Of a stretch of 64,000 bases of DNA, positions 15,041 to 35,907 are shown piece after piece (position 1 is the stretch's first letter; each line of letters starts with the position of its first letter). Source of the stretch: Phycisphaerae bacterium (GTDB lineage Bacteria; Planctomycetota; Phycisphaerae; Sedimentisphaerales; Anaerohalosphaeraceae); NCBI GenBank assembly GCA_012729675.1, contig JAAYCR010000058.1:1-64000 (forward strand), given 5' to 3'. Below the pieces are notes generated by a model. The model was given only the letters and a program-made list of their open reading frames with translations. It had not been told where the DNA came from and searched no databases. A program made the position numbers and the translations under genes.

Positions 15041-18000
15041 ATGCGCAGTTATATGTCACAGAAACAATGGATGATGGTTCTGCTGATTTCGCTGGCGGGG
15101 CTTGCGGCGGCAGATGTCGGTCCGACCTGGATTGAGCAATGGGGCATCCGCTGGACCTTTGATAAAAACATCTCCCTGAACGGCGCACCAAACACCTACC
15201 GCTACGGCCAGTTTGTCAACGGGGACTACTGGGTCGTCGGACCGGTGAATATCACGGGTATTTCGCCGGAGTTCCGTATCGGCGACGGCGCGACGGAGTT
15301 TGAGGGATGGGCCGTTCCCGACGGCTGGCACATCAACGGGTCGATGATTAACCCGCGTGCAATGGTGTCAACGCAGGGATATACCTACAACAGTGTGTAT
15401 GGCAGCTATAACAGTGCTCTGAATGTCGGTATCGGCGTCAGCGGCGAGACGCCCTTGGCCGTTCCGGTGGGCAGTTCGTTGGTTTCCACGAAAAGCCGAT
15501 CTCGAACAGGACCGGGCGGCGGTCAGGGCGGTAGTGATTCGGATGTCAAAACGGCCGCAGTGCTGACCGTATTGGCAGAAGCTCCGCCTGCCGACAGCTT
15601 CCGGCCTCCGTACTGCGGGCTGGTCAAGACGCTGTACCGTGCCGACAACCTGCAACGCGAGCGATTGACCTCCCTGACGTCGGTTTCCGGGACGCCGAAT
15701 ATTGAGGACGTAGCGGCCCTGTTTCAAAAGCCGTGGATTTGTCATCTCGGGGGATGGAGCGGCAAATACATCTTCCCGGTGGACAGTATCCCCACCAACT
15801 ACGGGCGGGAAATCCATCGGGATATTGGGATTGCGGCCTTGATGCTCAATCTGGATTATACCGAAGAGCAGAAAGAGCCGCTGTTGATTAACTTTGTCCA
15901 GCGGGGTATTGACCTGTACGGCATTGTCGCCGATGGAGGGATAACCCACTGGGGGGCCAACGGCGGACACATGGGTGGGCGAAAGTGGCCTATCCTGTTT
16001 GCCGGGCTGATGCTGGACGATGCGGCAATGAAGGGAGTCGGAGCCAAAAGCGGGGCCTACCTGTACAGTGCCAAGCCCGGCGGCGGCAATTACGGCCCCG
16101 GCGGCGGTTACGGCTGCCCCGTGCCGCTCAATAGGCCGTCAGATTATATCCATTTTGGCGAGGATGATCAGACGTTTCATATCGCCCAGCTGGATGTGGA
16201 CCTGACCGACACGTCCGGCCCCTATGGGGATGTCTGGCGTCCGGATACACGAGACGCCGCGTTTATTCCCTATCCGTCGTCGGATATCGGAGTGCCGGAA
16301 TGGGGCGTCGGTCACGCCTTGCGTCCGCATGTCAGCAATTATCACTATTCGGCCGCCTATCGGAGCGTTGCCACGCTGCCATTTGCGGGGACGGCGCTGG
16401 CGGCGTTGATTATGAACGCCAAGACGCTATGGAACCATGATGCATATTTTGACTATACCGACCGGCACATGACGCTGACGGCCTCGGGCGGTGAATGGTC
16501 CGGAAAGATCGGACGCACCAACAGCGCGTTCCTGACGGCGATGTGGGACACCTACCGCGCCGACTACGGCCCGATCTGGCCAAGCAAGGCCTCAGCGGGC
16601 ACCGGCAATAATGCACCGGTCATCGCTCCCATCTCCGCAAAGACTGTTACCGCGGGACAAAAGTTGGAATTTGTTGTTATGGCGACGGATGCGGACAATG
16701 ACGTGCTGAGCTATTCCGCCTCCGGATTGCCCTTAGGGTCGTTATTCAGCATTGCCACAAAAACATTCAACTGGACGCCTGGAAGCGCCCAAACAGGCGT
16801 ATTTACGGTTACCTTTTCCGTCTCTGACGGCAAGGGAGGCACGGCTACCGCTACGGTTTCCATTACCGTAAATCCTCCGCCTGATTATATCCTCTCGATT
16901 TCGTCCGCAAACGGCAGCGTCACCAAGCGGGTCAACGGTGTGGTGACCACGGCCACCAGCTTTGCTCACGGAACCGTCGTCAGCCTGACCGCTGCGCCTA
17001 ATACCGGCTATACCTTCGCTAGCTGGTCGGGCAGTGTCACCAGCACGAACAACCCCGTCAGCATTACGATGGACGGAAACAGGTCCGTCACCGCCAACTT
17101 TACGCCGATCGCTGTGCCGACTTATACCGTCACTTTCAACCTGGACGGCAAGGGCACACGCACCGGCGGCGGCGCGCTGACACAGACGATTGCACACGGC
17201 GGCGCAGCGGCGGCGCCTACCGTCACTGCCAACACCGGCTGGGTCTTTGCCGGCTGGGACAAGGCATTTAATAACATCACTGGCAATCTGACCGTCAATG
17301 CCGTGTACACGGCGCAGACCTATACCGTCACCTTTAACTTGGACGGCAAGGGTACGCGCACGGGCGGCGGGGCCTTGACACAAACGGTTGCACACGGCAG
17401 CGCAGCAACCGCACCTACGGTCGTGGCCAACACCGGCTGGGTATTTGCCGGCTGGGACAAGGCGTTTAACAATATCACCAGCAACCTGACTGTCAATGCG
17501 CTGTACACACAGCAGACCTATACGCTGGGTATCACCGCGGCCAACGGCAGCGTGACCAAGCGGGTCAACGGCGTGGTGACTACGGCCACCAGCTTTGCGC
17601 ACGGCACCGTTGTCAGCCTGACCGCTACCGCCAATACCGGCTATACCTTTGCCAACTGGTCGGGCAGCGCATCGGGCACGGCCAACCCCGTCAGCATCAC
17701 GATGGATGGCAACAAGGCCGTCACTGTAAACTTTACGCAGAATACCTACACGCTGGGGATCACAGCTAACAACGGCAGCGTGACCAAACGGGTTAACGGC
17801 GTGGTGACCACGGCCACCAGCTTTGCACATGGAACGGTCGTCAGCCTGACCGCTGCGCCCAACACCGGCTACACGTTCGCCAACTGGTCGGGCAACGCAA
17901 CCGGTACGGCCAACCCCATCAGTATCACGATGGACGGCAACAAGGCTGTCACCGCCAACTTTACACAGAATACCTATACGCTGGGCATCACCGCGACTAA

Positions 18001-19330
18001 CGGCAGCGTCACCAAGCGAGTTAACGGCGTGATCACCACGGCGACCAGCTTTGCACATGGAACCGTCGTCAGCCTGACCGCTGCGCCCAACACCGGCTAC
18101 ACCTTCGCCAATTGGTCCGGCAGTGCATCAGGCACGGCCAATCCCGTCAGTATCACGATGGACGGCAACAAGGCTGTCACCGCTAATTTTACACAGAATA
18201 CCTACACGCTGGCCATTACCGCTACTAACGGCAGTGTCACCAAGCGGGTCAACGGCGTGATTACTACAGCCACCAGCTTTGCCCACGGAACTATCGTCAG
18301 CCTGACGGCTGCCGCCAACACCGGCTACACCTTTGCCAACTGGTCCGGCAGCGCAACCGGCACGGCCAACCCCGTCAGCATCACAATGGACGCCAACAAG
18401 GCCGTAACTGCCAACTTTGCACAGGTTTCTCTCGATCTGAATCCCGTCGCCCAGTGGCTGTTTAACGAGCCTTATCAAGCGACCGCGATTGATCTTGTCA
18501 GCGGGCAACCTGCAAGCCTGATCAACGATCCTGAATGGGGTGAAGGCTGGGCGCAAGAGCACTTTGTTCGACTGGGCAGTGCACAGCAGGCCGTGCAGGT
18601 GCCGATGAGCGAGTGTCGCCCTCAGGCCGGAACAGTCGCCCTGTGGGTAATGCCTCAGGCCTCCAATGGCACCCAATACCTGTTCGGACATACCTTCAAC
18701 GGCGCCAACCGGATTGCCCTGTACACGGTGTTCACGGCCAACGGCAATGCCTTGACGCTGGGCATGGGCAATACGATCGCGCTGCATCAGAACATTGCCA
18801 TTCTGTCACCCGACGTCTTGTACCACATCGTGCTGACCTGGAACAACGGCAGCTATGCGGTCTATGTCGATGGCATCGAAGCCGCCGCCGGCAGCTATTC
18901 GGGCCTGAATGCCCTAAACACCTACGCAGATGTCGGCAACTACGGCAATGCTGCGACGCGAACGCTCGGTTTCCGCGGGCTGGTTGAAGAAGTGCAACTG
19001 CATTCACGGGCACTGGCTCCCAGTGAGGTGCAGGCGCTCTTTTTGACGCACAACGTCAAAGAAAACCGTCCGATCCAGTTCGTGGTCAACGGGACGGACG
19101 GCCTGGGCAACCCCATCAGCTACACCGCCTCAAATCTGCCCCAAGGCGCGACCTTTGACTTCGCCACACAGACCTTCTCATGGCGGCCTGCGTTGTACAA
19201 CACCGCCGGACGGTACGAAATATTCCTATCCGCACCCGGACAACCTACTGAAACCGTTACGATAGCCGTACAGGATGTGCAGCGCGCGGGCTGGTATGAG
19301 GCATTTTTGGCACACCTGGGGCTGAATTGA
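15041..19330 (+). CDS. Large secreted multidomain repeat protein
   Basis: This 1429-residue protein has an N-terminal signal peptide (WMMVLLISLAGLAAA). Residues about 25-525 form an unassigned domain rich in Trp, Gly and Tyr (IHRDIGIAALMLNLDY, ITHWGANGGHMGGRKWP). It may be an alpha-helical carbohydrate-active domain, but I cannot name a family. A putative-Ig/cadherin-like domain follows (NNAPVIAPISAKTV, about 527-612). Next come one InlB-B-type repeat, two Flg_new-type repeats (YTVTFNLDGKGTRTGGG) and four InlB-B-type repeats (YTLGITA.NGSVTKRVNG). A LamG-like domain (about 1140-1325) and a second Ig-like domain end the protein. There is no sorting tail. GAGG lies 7 bases before the ATG. It is probably a cell-surface or matrix protein that binds glycans. 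Confidence 0.88.
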   Translation: MRSYMSQKQWMMVLLISLAGLAAADVGPTWIEQWGIRWTFDKNISLNGAPNTYRYGQFVNGDYWVVGPVNITGISPEFRIGDGATEFEGWAVPDGWHINGSMINPRAMVSTQGYTYNSVYGSYNSALNVGIGVSGETPLAVPVGSSLVSTKSRSRTGPGGGQGGSDSDVKTAAVLTVLAEAPPADSFRPPYCGLVKTLYRADNLQRERLTSLTSVSGTPNIEDVAALFQKPWICHLGGWSGKYIFPVDSIPTNYGREIHRDIGIAALMLNLDYTEEQKEPLLINFVQRGIDLYGIVADGGITHWGANGGHMGGRKWPILFAGLMLDDAAMKGVGAKSGAYLYSAKPGGGNYGPGGGYGCPVPLNRPSDYIHFGEDDQTFHIAQLDVDLTDTSGPYGDVWRPDTRDAAFIPYPSSDIGVPEWGVGHALRPHVSNYHYSAAYRSVATLPFAGTALAALIMNAKTLWNHDAYFDYTDRHMTLTASGGEWSGKIGRTNSAFLTAMWDTYRADYGPIWPSKASAGTGNNAPVIAPISAKTVTAGQKLEFVVMATDADNDVLSYSASGLPLGSLFSIATKTFNWTPGSAQTGVFTVTFSVSDGKGGTATATVSITVNPPPDYILSISSANGSVTKRVNGVVTTATSFAHGTVVSLTAAPNTGYTFASWSGSVTSTNNPVSITMDGNRSVTANFTPIAVPTYTVTFNLDGKGTRTGGGALTQTIAHGGAAAAPTVTANTGWVFAGWDKAFNNITGNLTVNAVYTAQTYTVTFNLDGKGTRTGGGALTQTVAHGSAATAPTVVANTGWVFAGWDKAFNNITSNLTVNALYTQQTYTLGITAANGSVTKRVNGVVTTATSFAHGTVVSLTATANTGYTFANWSGSASGTANPVSITMDGNKAVTVNFTQNTYTLGITANNGSVTKRVNGVVTTATSFAHGTVVSLTAAPNTGYTFANWSGNATGTANPISITMDGNKAVTANFTQNTYTLGITATNGSVTKRVNGVITTATSFAHGTVVSLTAAPNTGYTFANWSGSASGTANPVSITMDGNKAVTANFTQNTYTLAITATNGSVTKRVNGVITTATSFAHGTIVSLTAAANTGYTFANWSGSATGTANPVSITMDANKAVTANFAQVSLDLNPVAQWLFNEPYQATAIDLVSGQPASLINDPEWGEGWAQEHFVRLGSAQQAVQVPMSECRPQAGTVALWVMPQASNGTQYLFGHTFNGANRIALYTVFTANGNALTLGMGNTIALHQNIAILSPDVLYHIVLTWNNGSYAVYVDGIEAAAGSYSGLNALNTYADVGNYGNAATRTLGFRGLVEEVQLHSRALAPSEVQALFLTHNVKENRPIQFVVNGTDGLGNPISYTASNLPQGATFDFATQTFSWRPALYNTAGRYEIFLSAPGQPTETVTIAVQDVQRAGWYEAFLAHLGLN
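17120..17515 (+). repeat. Two tandem 198-bp coding repeats
   Basis: Two direct copies of 66 codons start at 17120 and 17318. Each encodes a Flg_new / Listeria-Bacteroides-type unit with GGGALTQT, ANTGWVFAGWDKAFNNIT and NLTVNA. Identity between copies is high at DNA level. Confidence 0.85.
17516..18427 (+). repeat. Four tandem 228-bp coding repeats
   Basis: Direct copies start at 17516, 17744, 17972 and 18200, exactly 228 bases (76 codons) apart. Each encodes an InlB-B-type unit with NGSVTKRVNGV, TTATSFAHGT, NTGYTFANWSG and MDGNKAVT. A fifth, earlier unit starts near 16885. The near-identity suggests recent expansion and a tendency for copy-number change. Confidence 0.88.
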
Positions 19331-25998: not shown

Positions 25999-26214
25999 AT
26001 GGCACGCGCGACAGTATCACTTCCCAAGGCCGTGCCCGACGGCCTCGAACTGTCTGGCACGTATCTGACGTTCACTCTTGGGGCCGAGGAGTTCGGCCTG
26101 CAAATCCTCAAGGTCCGCGAGATGATCAGGGTATCGCGTCCTCGGATCATCTCCGAGTTATCGGACAGATTGTGTTTTGCGGGAGTAGTTGTGAATCATT
26201 TTGTATCCCGGTAA
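25999..26214 (+). pseudogene. Broken 5' copy of cheW
   Basis: This 71-codon frame has a good ribosome site (AGGAAAGGG). Its residues 20-41 (GTYLTFTLGAEEFGLQILKVRE) copy the start of the intact CheW 400 bases downstream; DNA identity runs for about 75 bases. After KVREMI the sequence departs into unrelated residues and stops, so the SH3-like fold cannot form. It is a partial duplication of the cheW 5' end or the remnant of a second cheW. It may still be translated as a short peptide. Confidence 0.75.
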
Positions 26215-26380
26215 TGGTAGATAAATGCGATTTTCCAGGTTTTTCATCATGACAGGTTAACCCCTGACGCCAATTGTACGACAAAGGCACCAAACCAAAT
26301 AGACACATTAAACAACAGTTGCAGGAATTGATTCGAGGAATCTTTAGAGAATGACTCTATTTTGTGGAAAGGCTGAGACG

Positions 26381-26893
26381 ATGTCACATGAAGCAAAGAC
26401 TGCCCCGCTAACCGGGGCGGGCGGTATATCCCTTTCGGGAAAGTACCTGACGTTCACACTGGGGGCCGAAGAGTTCGGCCTGCAAATCCTCAAGGTTCGC
26501 GAGATCATCGGCTATATGGACATCACGGCCGTGCCGCGGGCGCCCCACGATGTACGCGGGGTCATCAACCTGCGCGGACAAGTCGTGCCCATTGTCGATA
26601 TGCGGGCACGGTTTGAGATGGAAGCGGCCGAGGTCACCGACCAGACCTGTATCATCGTCGTCGAGGTCAAGGCGGGCAAGCACAGTTTTCACACCGGTAT
26701 CATCGTCGATCAGGTTTGCGAGGTGCTGGATATAGACGGCAAGGACATCGAGCCAACGCCGCAGTTTGACGGCAGTGTCGATACGTCGTTCATCCTCGGC
26801 ATGGGCAAAATCGGCAGCGCCGTCAAGATTCTGCTGGACATCGACAAAGTCCTCCATACACGAGAACTGGCTCAACTGACCGAAAACACATAA
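26381..26893 (+). CDS. cheW: Chemotaxis coupling protein CheW
   Basis: This 170-residue protein links receptors to CheA. The CheW fold spans about residues 20-165, with KYLTFTLGAEEFGLQILKVREII, then VPRAPHDVRGVINLRGQVVPIVDMR, the classic receptor/CheA contact segment, and ILGMGKIGSAVKILLDIDKVL at the end. The ATG at 26381 is favoured because GGAAAGG lies upstream; an earlier in-frame ATG (26351) is poorer. It is the first intact gene of the chemotaxis cluster and lies 71 bases before the receptor. Confidence 0.93.
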   Translation: MSHEAKTAPLTGAGGISLSGKYLTFTLGAEEFGLQILKVREIIGYMDITAVPRAPHDVRGVINLRGQVVPIVDMRARFEMEAAEVTDQTCIIVVEVKAGKHSFHTGIIVDQVCEVLDIDGKDIEPTPQFDGSVDTSFILGMGKIGSAVKILLDIDKVLHTRELAQLTENT

Positions 26894-26964
26894 ACGCTTT
26901 GTGAGCATGCGTAATTTTGATGTTTGTATAATAAAACGTGCAAAAATATAAACCAGGAGACAAA

Positions 26965-28944
26965 ATGTTTAAGAACATGAAGTTATCAATGAAGATTTCA
27001 GCGGGTTTTTTCATGCTGTTGGTTATCTCGCTTATCATGGGCGGGTTTGCATGGCATGGCCTTGGGCGGATATTGCAGTTATCGGACATCAATGAAGGCG
27101 GCGTTCAAGCCCTGACCTATATGAACCAATGTGCGACGACGCGGCGGGATTTCGCTATCCAGGGCTTCAATGTCCCAGAAGGACAAACCAAAAATGCCGC
27201 GGAGTTGTTCCGTGAAGCACACAGCGGGTTCTCAAGTGCTCTGGCGGAACTGGTGGGGCAGCCAAGGCTGAATGATGATGATCGTCGGTTGGTTACGGAA
27301 GTGCAGCGTAGCAGCGAACAGTATCTGGAGATATTCGGTCGAACCGTTGCCGCGCAGCAAAGCATCGGTGATGCATTTGCGGTATGGCGCCAAAACGGCA
27401 ACATAATCACACAGACCATCAACGGGGCAATTGACAATGTGTTGACGCCGGAAATGCAAAAGGCACTGGACAACAAGAATCTTGAGGGGTACGCACATTT
27501 TGCAGCGATCAGGAATTCACTGAACGAAGATGTGATTGCACGGTTTTTGCTGTTGAGGGTTGAGGCGACAGCCCTGACCCGAACAGAACGACAGCGCGAA
27601 TACCAGGTCTATCAGGAACAGCTTCAAAGGACAATTGATGGTCTGGATCGCTGGGCGGTTTTGGTTAAAGACAACAGCACTCTCACGAACGCAGCCCAGG
27701 CGATCCGTGAATCGCTGACAGGGTATGATGGGGCGGGCCGGACGTTTTATGACAGTGCCGTTCAGAAGCAGCGAGCCGATGCCGACATGGGACAGACGGC
27801 AGGTGCCATTTTTCAGAGAATGAACGAAGTCAGTCAAAATCTTCAGGCTCAGATGGCGACAGTTGGCGTACAGACCAATGTCTTTTTGATCAGTTTGATC
27901 ATCGGCGGTATCGTGTCAGGCGTATTATTGGCTATCTTCATCACCCGTGCTATCACCCGGCCGATCAATCAGATCATCGCCGGTCTGACCGAAGGGGCAC
28001 AACAGGTGGCATCCGCCTCCGGGCAGGTTTCGGCGGCGTCGCAGTCGCTGGCCGAAGGGGCGACCGAGCAAGCGGCGGGACTGGAAGAGACATCCTCCAG
28101 TCTTGAGGAAATGAGTTCGATGACCAAGCAAAATGCCGACAATGCGCAGCAGGCCAATACGCTGGCCGCCGAGGCCCGCAACGCCGCCCAGGGGGGGGCC
28201 GAGTCGATGCAGCGGATGAGCAAGGCGATTGACGACATCCAGAAGTCGTCCGACCAGACGGCCAAGATCATCAAGGTCATTGACGAAATCGCGTTCCAGA
28301 CGAATCTGCTGGCGCTCAATGCCGCGGTCGAAGCGGCACGGGCGGGCGAAGCAGGCAAGGGCTTTGCCGTGGTGGCCGAAGAAGTGCGAAACCTGGCGAT
28401 GCGAAGCGCCGAAGCGGCCAAGAACACGGCCAATATGATCGAGGAATCGGTCAAGAATTCCAAAAACGGCGTTGAGATTTCCAACGAGGTCAGCAAGGCA
28501 CTCGAAGAAATCGTCGGCGGCATCGCCAAGACGACCGATCTGGTCGGCGAAATCGCCGCGGCCAGTCAGGAACAGGCCCAGGGCATCGATCAGGTCAACA
28601 CCGCCGTCGCTCAGATGGACAAAGTCACCCAGCAGAACGCTGCCAACGCCGAAGAATCGGCCAGCGCCAGCGAAGAGTTGAGCGCCCAGGCCGAAACCAT
28701 GCAGGGCATCGTCGAAGAGCTGGTCGCGCTGGTCGAAGGCGCCTCGGCCCAAGCCACCCGCAGCCGCCAGAGTGCCCCGTGTCGCACCGCCGGCAAAGGG
28801 ACCTCCAAACCCAAACTGGGACTGGCCGACCACACGTTTCATCACATCGCCGATGGCAGGGCCGAATGCAAAGCGACCCCTGTGAAAGCCGCCTCCAAAA
28901 AGGCACTGCCGCTGGAAGAGGATTTCTCGGACTTTAACGGATAA
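26965..28944 (+). CDS. Methyl-accepting chemotaxis protein
   Basis: This 659-residue receptor is read from the ATG at 26965 (CAGGAG upstream). TM1 is at about 10-30 ([16 protein letters not shown]). The periplasmic helical sensor spans about 31-305 without a recognisable Cache or PAS domain. TM2 is at about 308-330 ([21 protein letters not shown]), followed by a HAMP-like segment. The cytoplasmic coiled coil has the hairpin tip [20 protein letters not shown] near 440-460 and Gln/Glu-rich methylation stretches. The C-terminal EDFSDFNG has no NWETF-type CheR tether. A strong terminator follows. Confidence 0.93.
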
Positions 28945-29194: not shown

Positions 29195-29569
29195 ATGGCA
29201 AAATCACTGATGATTGTTGATGACTCGGCAACAATGCGAAAGATCATCATCCGCACCGTACGAATGTCCGGACTGGAGTTTGACCGTACCGAAGAAGCCG
29301 GCAACGGCAAAGAGGCACTGGAAAAACTGCAAGAGTCTCCGGTGGATATTGTGTTGTGCGATATCAATATGCCCGAAATGTCCGGCACCGAGATGGTCAA
29401 AGAGGCGCGAAAACTTGACTGTTGCAAGGAGACCAAGATCATTATGGTCTCGACCGAAAGTGCCGAGGAACTGATCAGCGGCGTGATGGCCGACGGCGCC
29501 AACGGATATATCACCAAACCATTCACGCCGGAAAAATTTCAGGAAAAACTGACCCCGTTTATGAACTGA
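29195..29569 (+). CDS. cheY: Chemotaxis response regulator CheY
   Basis: This 124-residue single receiver domain has acidic pocket D9/D10, phospho-acceptor D56 (CDINMPEM), T87 in VSTES, and K108 in YITKPF. CheA phosphorylates it and it would act on a motor or other output. The ribosome site is AAAGGCAAG. With no flagellar genes nearby and a pilus locus in the window, twitching or another output is possible. It opens the second chemotaxis transcription group. Confidence 0.94.
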   Translation: MAKSLMIVDDSATMRKIIIRTVRMSGLEFDRTEEAGNGKEALEKLQESPVDIVLCDINMPEMSGTEMVKEARKLDCCKETKIIMVSTESAEELISGVMADGANGYITKPFTPEKFQEKLTPFMN

Positions 29570-29608: not shown

Positions 29609-30088
29609 ATGCTGGATCAAATGACGCTCAACGACACGGTACTCGACGCCGCACGCGAAGTGTTCGAAACGATGATTTATATGGACGTGGAAACCAACAA
29701 TGAGGCCAGCCCCGTTATCGAAGGCCAGTCTCTGCTTGGCTCGATTACTTTCAAGGGCTGTCTTGAGGGATGCCTGGCGGTCTGTGTCAGCCAGTCCTGC
29801 GCCGAACGCATTGCCAAGAATATGCTCGGCATGGAGCCGGAGGAGTCGCTGGCTATCGATGAAACCTGCGACGCCGTCGGCGAGGTGGCCAATATGGTCA
29901 TGGGCAGCATCAAGACGCGGCTTCAGGGCACCTATCCAACGATTGAGGTTTCGATCCCGTCAGTCATCACCGGGCGCGAACTGCGAAACACGCTTGGCGA
30001 CAAGGCCGTCAAGGCCGTCGTCAGCGCTTGGCTCGATGAGCAGGAAGCGGTCGAATTCTCATTCCTGTACCGAGAGGCCAAGCACTGA
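29609..30088 (+). CDS. cheX: CheX-like CheY-P phosphatase
   Basis: This 159-residue protein is of the CheC/CheX family, which dephosphorylates CheY-P. The single active-site helix is D88-AVG-E92-VA-N95-MVMG, matching the family pattern D/S-x3-E-x2-N. It starts DTVLDAAREVFETMI, typical of CheX. It lies 39 bases after cheY and 7 bases before a CheC-like/CBS gene, so two candidate phosphatases are encoded side by side. Confidence 0.9.
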   Translation: MLDQMTLNDTVLDAAREVFETMIYMDVETNNEASPVIEGQSLLGSITFKGCLEGCLAVCVSQSCAERIAKNMLGMEPEESLAIDETCDAVGEVANMVMGSIKTRLQGTYPTIEVSIPSVITGRELRNTLGDKAVKAVVSAWLDEQEAVEFSFLYREAKH

Positions 30089-30095
30089 CCGCCCG

Positions 30096-31358
30096 ATGAC
30101 AACCCCAACCGAACAACTTGCCGCCTCGCTGGATGCACTGACGCTTCGTGGATTTGAAGCGTTCTGTGAGGACATCGCATCAATGTTCGGCAACACCGCC
30201 GAGTGCGCCGCCGACAGTGCCGGACAGGGTTGCTTGTCCGATCTGAAAAAGGTATTCAATAAACTGGCCTCCGTCAACCAGGTACAGGCGGAGGGCGTTC
30301 TCAATGGGCCGTTCCAGCTCTTTCTGGATCAGGCGGGTCTGTTCGTGCTGGCCGGGGTCTTTGTGATGCTGCCGGAAAAACGGGTTCTTGAAACTATCCG
30401 CGGCGGAACGCTCAAGGACGCCGACTATATCAACGACGCGATCAAAGAAGTCGGCAATCTGTTGATCGGCTCGTGGGATCGCGTCTTTCGGGAAGAACAA
30501 AAAGGCCACAAACACTTCAAACAGACCGGCACATTCGTCGGCTCGATCTGGGATAATCCCGAAGAAAGCATTGGCTTGGCCGTAGAACAGCCCTGCCGAT
30601 ATGTCATCTGCCGGATGAAGGTAGATGATTTTCCCGAATTTAAATGTGCGGCGGTCTTTTCAGAACAATTATTTGCAGCCGAAGACCCGCTCCAAGCGCC
30701 GCAAGACGCCGAGCCGGCTGCCGCTCCGGAGCCGGAGCCGCAGACTGAACCGAAAGCCACCCCTTTGCCGGAAATAACCTATACCGAAGACAATCCCGGA
30801 CCCGTTTCCGAATCCATTCGGCAAATGACGCAGCACATCGAACAGAATGACACGACCGGTACAACAGCGGCTGCGTCGGCACAAGCCTTGCCGAAACTTT
30901 CCGCCGGTCAGATTATGAACCCGGCCGTACTGTGGGTCGATCCGGAAGACACCGTTGAAGATGTGTTACGCCAGATGCAGCAGCACAATGTCGGTTATGT
31001 GCTGGCCGGACGCGATGGACAAATCGAAGGCCTGATCTCGCGCAGCGATATCGCCGCGGCCATCAGTCCCTACACCCGGCCGGTGTTTTCCCACTGGCGA
31101 CGGCCAATGGACGATGCCGCGCTCCAGATTCGCATCAAGTGGTTTATGAGCCGCCCCGTGCATACGATTCGCCCCGACGTGTCACTGCAGACGGTCATGG
31201 AGACGATGCTGCGCTGTTCGGTGCGCGGACTGCCGGTCGTCGATGCGGGTGGAACCCCGTTGGGATTGGTCTCGGCGTACGATGTCTTCGGCGCTCTTCT
31301 GGCCGATGCAGGCGTGAGTATGTCCGGTCGCCCGCAACAGGCTCCGTGCGGCGGATAA
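30096..31358 (+). CDS. CheC-like phosphatase domain fused to a pair of CBS domains
   Basis: This 420-residue protein begins at the ATG at 30096. Residues 1-192 look like a CheC/CheX-type domain: D114-AIK-E118-VG-N121-LLIG matches the phosphatase helix with the same spacing as the CheX next door. A Pro/Ala/Glu linker (about 195-268) leads to two CBS domains, about 272-322 (MNPAVLWVDPEDTVEDVLRQM, GLISRSDIA) and 348-402 (MSRPVHTIRPDVSLQTVM, GLVSAYDVFGA). CBS pairs bind adenine nucleotides in many proteins. The fusion would let energy state tune CheY-P breakdown. That role is an inference, and the CheC-like assignment is less certain than the CBS one. Confidence 0.85.
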   Translation: MTTPTEQLAASLDALTLRGFEAFCEDIASMFGNTAECAADSAGQGCLSDLKKVFNKLASVNQVQAEGVLNGPFQLFLDQAGLFVLAGVFVMLPEKRVLETIRGGTLKDADYINDAIKEVGNLLIGSWDRVFREEQKGHKHFKQTGTFVGSIWDNPEESIGLAVEQPCRYVICRMKVDDFPEFKCAAVFSEQLFAAEDPLQAPQDAEPAAAPEPEPQTEPKATPLPEITYTEDNPGPVSESIRQMTQHIEQNDTTGTTAAASAQALPKLSAGQIMNPAVLWVDPEDTVEDVLRQMQQHNVGYVLAGRDGQIEGLISRSDIAAAISPYTRPVFSHWRRPMDDAALQIRIKWFMSRPVHTIRPDVSLQTVMETMLRCSVRGLPVVDAGGTPLGLVSAYDVFGALLADAGVSMSGRPQQAPCGG

Positions 31359-31410: not shown

Positions 31411-33480
31411 ATGGATAGCAGACAAGAACTTTCGGCATTACTTGAGCAGGCCGCCTCGAAAATAACGATGCTCGACGCCAAAGACGCCGACGAAATGAAA
31501 GCCGTTCAGGGCGTGCTGGCGCAACTTCAGTCGCTGGCTGCCCAGACCGCCGAGGCGGACGAAACACTTAAGGCATTTTCAAAGGTGAGCCAAAATGCCG
31601 CAGAATGGGCAAAAGACCTGCTGAAAAAATCCAATAAAAAAACGGATACCCAAGTCGCCGCGATTACCTCGGCCGTGATGGATATGCAGCGTCTGCTGGA
31701 TGAGGCCGCAGCCCCCCCGCCGTCGCCGCAAGCCGGAACCGCCCCGCCGACGGCCCTCAGTGAGGATGATATCCCGCTGATCCAGGATTTTATCGCCGAA
31801 TCACGCGAACACATCGAGTCGGCCGAGGCGGCGCTAATCGAACTGGAAAACACCCCCGACAACAACGAAATCCTGAACCAGATATTCCGCTCGTTTCATA
31901 CCATCAAGGGAATGGCGGGCTTCCTGAATTTGACCGACATCAATGGGTTGGCTCACGCCGCCGAAAACCTGCTTGACCTGGCCCGTAAAAACCAACTGGT
32001 CTTGACCGGCGGCAACAGCGACGCCGTTTTTGCATCCATCGATATGCTCAAAGGCATGCTGATCGATCTCGAAAACGCGATTGAAAACGGCGTCGGCGTG
32101 TGTCGTCCGTCCGGAATAGACGCACTGCTGGAGCATCTGCACGCCTGCGCCAACGGTCAGGCACAACAAGCCGCCCCCGCCGACATTGGCGGCGAATCGG
32201 AACCGGCCCCCGAACCGGACGAAGCGTCGGATCACACATTGGACGCGATACTGGACACTCCCGCGCAAACGGCCGACGCACCGCGCGAAAACACCTCAGC
32301 ATCCGCGGCGACAGTCGAAAAGATTAAAGTCAACACGCTCAAGCTGGACGATTTGATCAATATGACCGGCGAACTGGCGATTGCCCAGTTGATGATCGCC
32401 GAAGAAGTCAAAAAAGCCGTCCACACCGACAGCGACCTGTACCGAAAAGTCGCACTACAAAACAAAATCGTTCGCGAGCTTCAGGAATTGTCGATGTCGA
32501 TGCGTATGGTGCCGATCCAAGGCGCCTTTCAAAAGATGAGCCGACTGGTGCGGGACCTGTCCAAAAAAGCCGGCAAAAACATCCAGTTGATCACCACCGG
32601 CGAAGAGACCGAGCTGGATCGTAACATTGTCGATAAGATCACCGACCCGCTGGTGCACATGATGCGCAACTCCGTCGATCACGGCGTCGAACCCCCCGGC
32701 GAACGCACGCAAAACGGCAAATCCCCGCAAGGTAAAATTCGCTTGAGCGCCTACCATCAGGCAGGAAATATCGTTATTGAAATCCAAGACGACGGGCGAG
32801 GCCTGCGGCGCGAAAAGCTCATCCAAAAAGCCGTCGAAAAAGGGCTGATCTCCGACCATCAGGAACTCAGCGACGACGAGGCCTTCCGGCTCATCTTTCA
32901 GGCCGGGTTTTCGACAGCCGAGAAAATCTCGGATGTCTCCGGCCGCGGCGTCGGGATGGATGTCGTCCGCAAAAACATTGAAAGCCTCGGCGGCAAAATC
33001 GATATTCAAAGCGTCCCCAATAAAGGCACCACCTTTATCATCCGCCTGCCTCTGACACTGGCGATTATCGACGGCCAGATCGTGACTGTCGGCAATCAGC
33101 GGTACATCATCCCGATCAACGCCATTGTCGGCAGCGTACGCCCGACACCGGAACAAATTTCAACCATTCAGGGAAAAGGCGAAATGGCCCATGTCCGCGG
33201 CGACCTGCTCCGCTTGATTCGGATGAGCCGTTTGTTCGGCGTCAGCGGCGCCATCGAAAATCCAACCGACGGCCTGCTGGTTATCGTCGAAGAAGGCGGC
33301 AGAAAATGCGCCTTGCTTGTCGATGATCTCATTGGCCAGCAGCAGGTGGTCATCAAGAATCTTTCCGGCATGGGCAAGATCAAAGGCGTCTCCGGCGGCG
33401 CTATCATGGGCGACGGACGCATCAGTCTGATTCTCGACATTCCGGGCCTTATCGACCCCTCCGGAGCCGGTTTGAATTGA
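31411..33480 (+). CDS. cheA: Chemotaxis histidine kinase CheA
   Basis: This 689-residue kinase has an unusual N-terminal extension of about 115 residues, helical and Ala/Gln/Asp-rich, ahead of the HPt domain. The phospho-accepting His is H163 in SFHTIKGMAGF. No clear P2 domain is seen; a Pro/Glu/Asp-rich linker occupies about 255-300. Dimerisation (about 308-365, LDDLINMTGELAIAQLM), the ATPase (MRNSVDHGVE, IQDDGRGL, GRGVGMDVVRKNI) and the C-terminal CheW-like domain follow. It phosphorylates CheY and CheB. It lies 10 bases before cheR. Confidence 0.94.
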   Translation: MDSRQELSALLEQAASKITMLDAKDADEMKAVQGVLAQLQSLAAQTAEADETLKAFSKVSQNAAEWAKDLLKKSNKKTDTQVAAITSAVMDMQRLLDEAAAPPPSPQAGTAPPTALSEDDIPLIQDFIAESREHIESAEAALIELENTPDNNEILNQIFRSFHTIKGMAGFLNLTDINGLAHAAENLLDLARKNQLVLTGGNSDAVFASIDMLKGMLIDLENAIENGVGVCRPSGIDALLEHLHACANGQAQQAAPADIGGESEPAPEPDEASDHTLDAILDTPAQTADAPRENTSASAATVEKIKVNTLKLDDLINMTGELAIAQLMIAEEVKKAVHTDSDLYRKVALQNKIVRELQELSMSMRMVPIQGAFQKMSRLVRDLSKKAGKNIQLITTGEETELDRNIVDKITDPLVHMMRNSVDHGVEPPGERTQNGKSPQGKIRLSAYHQAGNIVIEIQDDGRGLRREKLIQKAVEKGLISDHQELSDDEAFRLIFQAGFSTAEKISDVSGRGVGMDVVRKNIESLGGKIDIQSVPNKGTTFIIRLPLTLAIIDGQIVTVGNQRYIIPINAIVGSVRPTPEQISTIQGKGEMAHVRGDLLRLIRMSRLFGVSGAIENPTDGLLVIVEEGGRKCALLVDDLIGQQQVVIKNLSGMGKIKGVSGGAIMGDGRISLILDIPGLIDPSGAGLN

Positions 33481-33490
33481 GGAAACCGAT

Positions 33491-34345
33491 ATGTTTAATG
33501 CCATTGCAATTGACGATAAACTGACGCTGACCGATGCCGAATTCGAGCAAATCAGCGATAGGGTCTATGACCACTGCGGCATCAATCTGCACGACGGTAA
33601 AAAGGAGCTGGTGCGGGCACGGCTGGCCAAGATTATCCGACAGGGACGTTTTGACAGCTTCTCTCAGTATATGGAGCATGTCGCCGCCGATGCCTCCGGG
33701 CAGGCGTTTTCCGACCTGATCGACTCACTCAGCACCAATCTGACCAGCTTCTTTCGAGAATCGATTCACTTTGATTATCTGGCCCGCAGTTATCTGCCGG
33801 AACTGGTTGCCCACAAACAACGCAGCGGCCAACTCCGTCTCCGCGCCTGGAGTGCGGGCTGTTCGTCCGGCGAGGAACCCTATACCATCGCCATCACCCT
33901 GCTGGAATCGCTGCCCGACCGTGCCCGCTGGGATATCAAATTACTGGCGACGGATATTTCCACACGGATTCTCAAACGTGCCCGGGAGGGGATTTATGAA
34001 CGCGAACGCATCGAGCCGGTTCCACCGGCATTGAAAAACCGGTATCTGACGATGCGCACCCAAAACGGTCAAAAACAATTTGAGGTGGCCTCGACCCTGC
34101 GAAACATCATCACCTTTAAATATCTCAATCTGATGCAGGAATGGCCCTTCCGCGGGCCGTTTGATTTTATCTTCTGCCGGAATGTGATGATTTATTTTGA
34201 CAAACCCACCCAGCAGCGTCTGATCGACCGTTTTTGGAAAGTGCTGGCGCCGGGCGGGGTGTTGTTTACCGGACACTCCGAATCGCTGACCGGTATCCGC
34301 CATCAATTTCAATATGTGCAGCCTACGATCTACAGGAAGCGATAG
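33491..34345 (+). CDS. cheR: Chemotaxis receptor methyltransferase CheR
   Basis: This 284-residue SAM-dependent enzyme methylates receptor glutamates. The small N-terminal helical domain (DRVYDHCGINLHDGKKELVRARL) is followed by SLSTNLTSFFRES and the SAM-binding segment AWSAGCSSGEEPYTIAI near residue 119. FDFIFCRNVMIYFD and GVLFTGHSESL complete the fold. Length is standard. The next gene starts 2 bases after its stop. Confidence 0.94.
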   Translation: MFNAIAIDDKLTLTDAEFEQISDRVYDHCGINLHDGKKELVRARLAKIIRQGRFDSFSQYMEHVAADASGQAFSDLIDSLSTNLTSFFRESIHFDYLARSYLPELVAHKQRSGQLRLRAWSAGCSSGEEPYTIAITLLESLPDRARWDIKLLATDISTRILKRAREGIYERERIEPVPPALKNRYLTMRTQNGQKQFEVASTLRNIITFKYLNLMQEWPFRGPFDFIFCRNVMIYFDKPTQQRLIDRFWKVLAPGGVLFTGHSESLTGIRHQFQYVQPTIYRKR

Positions 34346-34347
34346 CG

Positions 34348-34836
34348 ATGCAAACGAAACGAAACATTGTGGTGCAGGTCTCCGATGCCCGTATCTCGCG
34401 GGACAAAGACACCGTGCTGGTGACTTACTCGCTCGGTTCCTGCATTGCGGTCACGCTGTATGATCCGGCGCTGGCCGTCGGCGGTATGATACATTATCAG
34501 CTTCCGGATTCCAAAATGGACGAGGATCGCGCCCGCCGTGACCCGTTTATGTTTGCCGATTCCGGCCTGCATGTCTTGATCAACAAAATGCTGGAGATGG
34601 GCGCCAACAAAAAACACATGACCATCCACGCCGCCGGCGGCGCCGCCATGGCCACCGGGCCGAAAGGATTTGACATCGGCAAACGCAATTTTCTGTCGCT
34701 GCGAAAGGTGCTCTGGCAATACGGCATTATGATGAACAGCCACGATGTCGGCGGCGGCAACCCACGCAATATGTATCTCGACATCGAAACCGGAACGGTG
34801 CTGGTCAAGTCCAACGGCGTCGAAAAGAAACTCTAA
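34348..34836 (+). CDS. cheD: Chemoreceptor glutamine deamidase CheD
   Basis: This 162-residue enzyme is read from the ATG at 34348 (AGGAAGCGATAGCG upstream). Catalytic C32 in YSLGSCIAVTLYD and H49 in GGMIHYQLP are both present, as is AGGAAMATGPKGFDIGKRN further on. CheD deamidates receptor Gln residues and in other bacteria is stimulated by or docks with CheC. A CheC-like protein is encoded three genes upstream, so the classic CheC-CheD feedback could operate here. Confidence 0.92.
   Translation: MQTKRNIVVQVSDARISRDKDTVLVTYSLGSCIAVTLYDPALAVGGMIHYQLPDSKMDEDRARRDPFMFADSGLHVLINKMLEMGANKKHMTIHAAGGAAMATGPKGFDIGKRNFLSLRKVLWQYGIMMNSHDVGGGNPRNMYLDIETGTVLVKSNGVEKKL

Positions 34837-35907
<1,071 letters not shown>

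Follow-up and report, generated by a model that had tools for sequence, protein, structure and literature searches.

In this study, we have characterised a 420-residue protein of a flagellated planctomycete in which an N-terminal domain, whose membership of the CheC superfamily is supported, is joined to a C-terminal pair of CBS domains. The pairing is conserved among members of one bacterial order, and through it the energy state of the cell could bear on the control of swimming. We give an even chance to the reading that we have here a second response-regulator phosphatase of the CheC superfamily, one that acts as a partner of CheX under the control of its CBS module. Our direct observations concern domain anatomy, the predicted fold, motif conservation, gene order and the coupling of motif retention to cheX, from which we infer CheY-P dephosphorylation, nucleotide binding and coupling of the two halves.

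Gene, operon and domain anatomy

The window is the whole stretch of DNA that was analysed (64,000 nucleotides). The gene lies, as the initial annotation had it, in a chemotaxis operon, and its stop is where that annotation placed it:

26351 to 26893, plus strand: cheW (Pfam CheW)
26938 to 28944, plus strand: chemoreceptor, MCP (Pfam MCPsignal)
29195 to 29569, plus strand: cheY, the probable substrate (Pfam Response_reg; conserved gene order)
29609 to 30088, plus strand: cheX, directly upstream partner gene (Pfam CheX, 67.7 bits; adjacency kept in 53 loci)
30096 to 31358, plus strand: CheC-like/CBS gene, ORF of 420 residues with its ATG at 30096
31411 to 33480, plus strand: cheA (Pfam Hpt, H-kinase_dim, HATPase_c, CheW)
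33491 to 34345, plus strand: cheR (Pfam CheR)
34348 to 34836, plus strand: cheD (Pfam CheD; the ORF opens at 34234, with the internal ATG at 34348 as the likely start)
34849 to 35907, plus strand: cheB (Pfam CheB_methylest and Response_reg)

Seven bases separate the end of cheX from the ATG of the CheC-like/CBS gene. The in-frame ORF could open earlier, at 29700 within cheX; this start was ruled out, since it overlaps cheX and the alignment of relatives begins at the 30096 methionine (a methionine stands there in 43 of 52). By Pfam search of the whole genome, the neighbouring cheX is the only CheX, and separate FliM and FliN type genes are found on another contig. Just upstream of cheW, a 71-residue CheW-like ORF (window 25999-26214) is possibly a truncated duplicate. 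Another protein encoded in the window (15041-19330; 1429 residues) combines InlB-type repeats with Ig-like domains and one laminin-G-like domain, and is likely located at the surface.

The protein itself divides as follows:

30096 to 30674, plus strand: residues 1-193, domain of predicted CheC/FliM/FliY/CheX fold (AlphaFold2, Foldseek, VIA-align, conservation)
30435 to 30458, plus strand: D114-x3-E118-x2-N121 motif on the long helix 113-134 (conservation; intact in 53/53 copies beside cheX)
30675 to 30890, plus strand: flexible Glu/Ala/Pro-rich linker, 43-275 residues long among relatives
30906 to 31067, plus strand: CBS domain 1, residues 271-324, with S315-x2-D318 (Pfam; motif kept in 42/50 relatives)
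31068 to 31136, plus strand: inter-CBS segment, residues 325-347, strongly conserved, consensus PYLRPxFAKWRRPxDDATLQIKx
31137 to 31304, plus strand: CBS domain 2, about residues 348-403, with S393-x2-D396 (second Pfam stretch; alignment)

The two CBS domains that had been proposed for the C-terminal half are recognised by Pfam (E 1.2e-24, 86.8 bits). The profile search suggested by the initial annotation had a divided outcome, as neither Pfam nor NCBIfam assigns the N-terminal half itself to a CheC or CheX family, while relatives do match: Pfam CheX is reached at E<1 by 21 of 51, weakly (best 9.1e-6), Pfam CheC by nine of the 51, and one relative (G462) lies just over the profile cut-off with its neighbours in the frame. 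The sole PDB sequence-profile match of the 51-relative profile was T. maritima FliY (E 0.0049), and hhalign of the N-domain family against the neighbouring CheX family (E 2.9e-4, probability 41%) places D114/E118/N121 over D88/E92/N95 of CheX. Profile searches alone would thus leave the CheC-type assignment undecided. With a fold nearly invisible to family profiles, annotation pipelines would call this protein just a CBS protein.

Structure prediction, the other check that had been proposed, gave a CheC-superfamily fold, so that the lack of such a fold, named in the initial annotation as a refuting outcome, did not occur. The AlphaFold2 model of residues 1-195, built from an input alignment of 5 sequences taken from the window and its related loci, reached pLDDT 87.8 and pTM 0.85, and every Foldseek match below E 0.001 was a FliY, FliM, CheC or CheX. 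In VIA-align, the best match was the FliM middle domain (Z 20.3, rmsd 2.5 over 178 residues), followed by FliY (19.2), CheC (16.4) and CheX (13.0), with the highest unrelated fold at Z 3.8. The fold assignment is therefore firm as a prediction. The full-length model, at pLDDT 46, is unusable for placing both halves.

These fold matches bear on two other readings of the protein. As FliM gives the best of them, the domain might be FliM/FliY-like and join or touch the C-ring, where its CBS pair would sense metabolism and act on the motor without any involvement of CheY turnover. We regard this as rather unlikely: there is no FliN-like tail, a separate FliM is present, the gene is located in the che operon in most genomes, and such a role would not require keeping the catalytic motif. 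Outright identity with FliM was ruled out, as the protein lacks a FliN-like domain and the genome encodes FliM separately. The T. maritima CheC-CheD complex (2f9z) is also among the fold matches, cheD is in the same operon, and the genome's only CheC-profile match is the neighbouring cheX, all of which would suit a CheC-like partner of CheD that acts as an adaptation regulator rather than mainly as a phosphatase. The supply of CheD to the receptors would then depend on CheY-P binding and on the CBS ligand, and the E/N motif would serve CheY-P binding with slow turnover. We consider this reading unlikely; several loci have cheY, cheX and the CheC-like/CBS gene without cheD on the stretch examined, which speaks against it.

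Distribution of the family and fate of the motif

In a sample of 397 genomes of the class, 50 encode the N-domain; in the order (Sedimentisphaerales), 71 of 161 do. The domain is fused to a CBS pair in almost all loci examined, and the three exceptions are due to the end of a contig, to unknown bases and to a change of frame. In these loci the usual order is cheY, cheX and the CheC-like/CBS gene, often followed by cheA, cheR, cheD and cheB. Within the order, 60 genomes have both this protein and CheX, 11 have only the former and 18 only CheX, a co-occurrence (Fisher 6e-17) computed ignoring kinship. No relatives were found in the viral contigs or plasmids searched. Other planctomycete families have, immediately downstream of cheX, a gene whose product is distantly related to the N-domain (profile E 1e-10 to 1e-6):

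L096:6668-7663: CheC-like protein with a receiver
L094:6551-7582 and L081:8083-9105: CheC-like proteins with a receiver-like tail
L095:6530-7105: CheC-like protein without a tail

None of these four proteins carries a CBS domain, and the tail of L081 and L094 is unrecognised by Pfam, its receiver likeness being judged by eye. The position of the CBS pair is thus empty or filled by a receiver or a receiver-like tail, and the C-terminal module looks exchangeable. Together these proteins would make up a wider family of cheX partners. Other fusions were seen in the course of this survey. A receiver-CheX fusion of about 280-290 residues (L080:3357-4190, minus strand; Pfam Response_reg and CheX) sits between cheD and cheB in a che operon, and CheX-matching ORFs of 283-297 residues in G467, G643, G763, G799, G803, G805 and G813 may be the same fusion.

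The residues of the motif stand exactly as numbered in the initial annotation (YIND114AIKE118VGN121LLIGSWDRVFREE in the 420-residue translation) and make up a D/S-x3-E-x2-N phosphatase motif. Among relatives, D114 is conserved in 48 of 52, E118 in 49 and N121 in 50. The alignment has no conserved E-x2-N in the first helix of the domain, leaving one motif per chain. Conservation and fold rule out a chance motif. Close by, H138 (51/52) and H140 (48/52) are nearly invariant (window 30507-30515).

The fate of the motif was then compared across the 63 copies for which the gene upstream was assessable; 53 lie beside cheX and 10 do not. D, E and N are all kept in every one of the 53 cheX-adjacent copies, which rules out a decayed duplicate of CheX; at least one of them is lost in 7 of the 10 others, and E or N in 6 (Fisher 2e-7). 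In those 10 copies, other near-invariant positions are kept in 186 of 220 cases, against 15 of 30 for the motif residues (p 6e-5), so that the loss is not general decay. At least five losses are placed on the tree (in which locus L005 is identical to G749), and G607, which has a copy of each kind, has an intact motif in the cheX-adjacent one and not in the other. The strictest phylogenetic pairing gave 4 supported pairs, a mean of 3.4 in the expected direction and 0 against, too few for significance. His140 and Thr146 tend to vanish together with the motif, H140 being mostly lost where E or N is lost; both may be part of the same surface as the motif, and H140 may belong to an active or binding face. 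Retention of the motif beside cheX and its frequent loss elsewhere lend indirect support to catalysis, and we argue from them that the motif functions jointly with the chemotaxis proteins. Most simply, the E/N pair would act alongside CheY, CheX and CheA, which is what one would expect of a motif for phosphatase activity or for CheY-P binding.

The copies outside the chemotaxis operon complicate this picture. Most genomes with the protein and without CheX also lack CheA and retain FliM/FliN type genes, and in three of them (L117, L118 and L119, in G732, G754 and G538, respectively) the gene is 9-15 kb from FlhA and FliM/FliN genes; both points count in favour of the role at the C-ring weighed above. 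The single arrangement shared by these three loci suggests a link to the motor or an older position of the gene. That some flagellated genomes retain the protein without CheX or CheA weakens the notion of a strictly chemotaxis-bound gene and counts against the phosphatase reading. In three of them (G538, G491 and G769) the motif is intact, and in G491 the intact protein comes after a receiver and a hybrid kinase. In G525, where no CheA was found, the motif E is replaced by Q and the gene directly downstream (L051:7612-8496, minus strand) encodes an Hpt-CBS fusion, a further pairing of CBS with a phosphotransfer domain. A copy with a lost motif in G663 has directly upstream a gene (L045:9494-11986, minus strand) for an 830-residue coiled-coil protein with the same type of CBS pair at its end. 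Several of the CheX-less genomes are incomplete, making the absence of CheX or CheA uncertain. In view of these copies, a function at the motor or in some other phosphorelay is conceivable.

CBS module and proposed mechanism

Nucleotide binding is usual for CBS pairs. Here each CBS domain has the nucleotide-contact motif [ST]xx[DN], at S315/D318 and S393/D396; the second, counted as [ST]xx[DEN], is kept in 45 of 50 relatives. Profile matches of the pair include the nucleotide-binding MJ1225 and AMPK gamma, from which the ligand itself is not readable. Judging from its conserved motifs, the pair is a candidate ligand-binding module, with an adenine nucleotide as the most likely ligand. CBS pairs also frequently dimerise, and the domain could be an active phosphatase that its CBS pair merely dimerises or tethers, without control by a ligand. 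The long and variable linker suits this idea, as do the relatives in other families, whose C-terminal part is a receiver, resembles one or is missing; on the other side, the nucleotide-contact motifs are retained in most copies and the inter-CBS segment is unusually conserved, being among the best-conserved parts of the protein. We consider such a purely structural role to be quite unlikely.

In the ligand-controlled phosphatase that we favour, a function already suggested in the initial annotation, the N-terminal domain would dock onto CheY-P, where E118 would touch the active-site lysine of CheY and N121 would position the water for attack, the roles that their counterparts have in CheX and CheC (mechanism of CheC/CheX/FliY, PMC3035606). 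The CBS pair would take up its ligand, most likely an adenine nucleotide, and through its pairing or conformation would set the availability of the phosphatase domain via the long flexible linker, so that the ligand would govern access to CheY-P. With a linker so long and variable, a rigid interface is a less likely route of coupling than dimerisation or tethering. The nucleotide state would thereby be passed on to CheY-P lifetime and from there to motor switching. Because this linker separates the domains, the idea is open to direct testing in vitro.

A broader proposal, which we advance tentatively, is that planctomycetes have a distinct class of CheC-family phosphatases that act as partners of CheX and carry an exchangeable C-terminal sensor, a receiver or receiver-like tail in some families and the CBS pair in the present case, where a CBS ligand such as ATP, ADP or AMP would directly set CheY-P lifetime. 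With cheX already in the operon, a second phosphatase is not obviously needed; one that reads nucleotides would explain why a second CheC-family protein is kept beside CheX. Energy taxis is usually ascribed to receptors. If our proposal is true, the energy state would act downstream of the receptors, at the phosphatase step, and metabolism would thereby control the pathway at its output.

Comparison with known systems

No CheC or CheX joined with CBS domains is described in the literature searched, where the few papers sharing both terms appear, from the parts available, to be genome or transcript surveys; to that extent, the literature agrees with the initial annotation, which knew of no described protein of this kind. 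That annotation did not mention the cheX gene directly upstream, the single motif where CheC has two, or the different C-terminal modules of other planctomycete families. CheX (T. maritima 1xko/1squ; B. burgdorferi CheX-CheY 3hzh) has in common with our protein the CheC fold and one D-x3-E-x2-N per chain. However, CheX has about 155 residues and no sensor module, as against 420 residues and a CBS pair here, and its structural match (Z 13.0) is below those of FliM, FliY and CheC. The present protein also has no Pfam CheX match and does not stand alone, true CheX being the neighbouring gene. CheC (T. maritima 1xkr) shares the fold (Z 16.4) and the motif of its second half, but has two motifs and no CBS domains, whereas one motif was found here. 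With its single motif and extra module, the protein is therefore neither CheC nor CheX proper. The closest folds are those of FliY and FliM (4hyn, 5x0z; Z 19.2 and 20.3), which differ in having a FliN-like tail where Pfam finds only CBS in our protein. FliM, in addition, is without the phosphatase motif.

Fusions of CheA with CheC/CheX are known in Leptospirae (PMC10542144) and likewise hold a CheC-family phosphatase domain within a multidomain chemotaxis protein; they carry a kinase, in place of which the protein described here carries a CBS module. Finally, the CBS (Bateman) modules of MJ1225 and AMPK gamma resemble ours in their two CBS domains with [ST]xx[DN] motifs, from which the present module is set apart by the attached domain of predicted CheC fold and by a conserved inter-CBS segment specific to this family.
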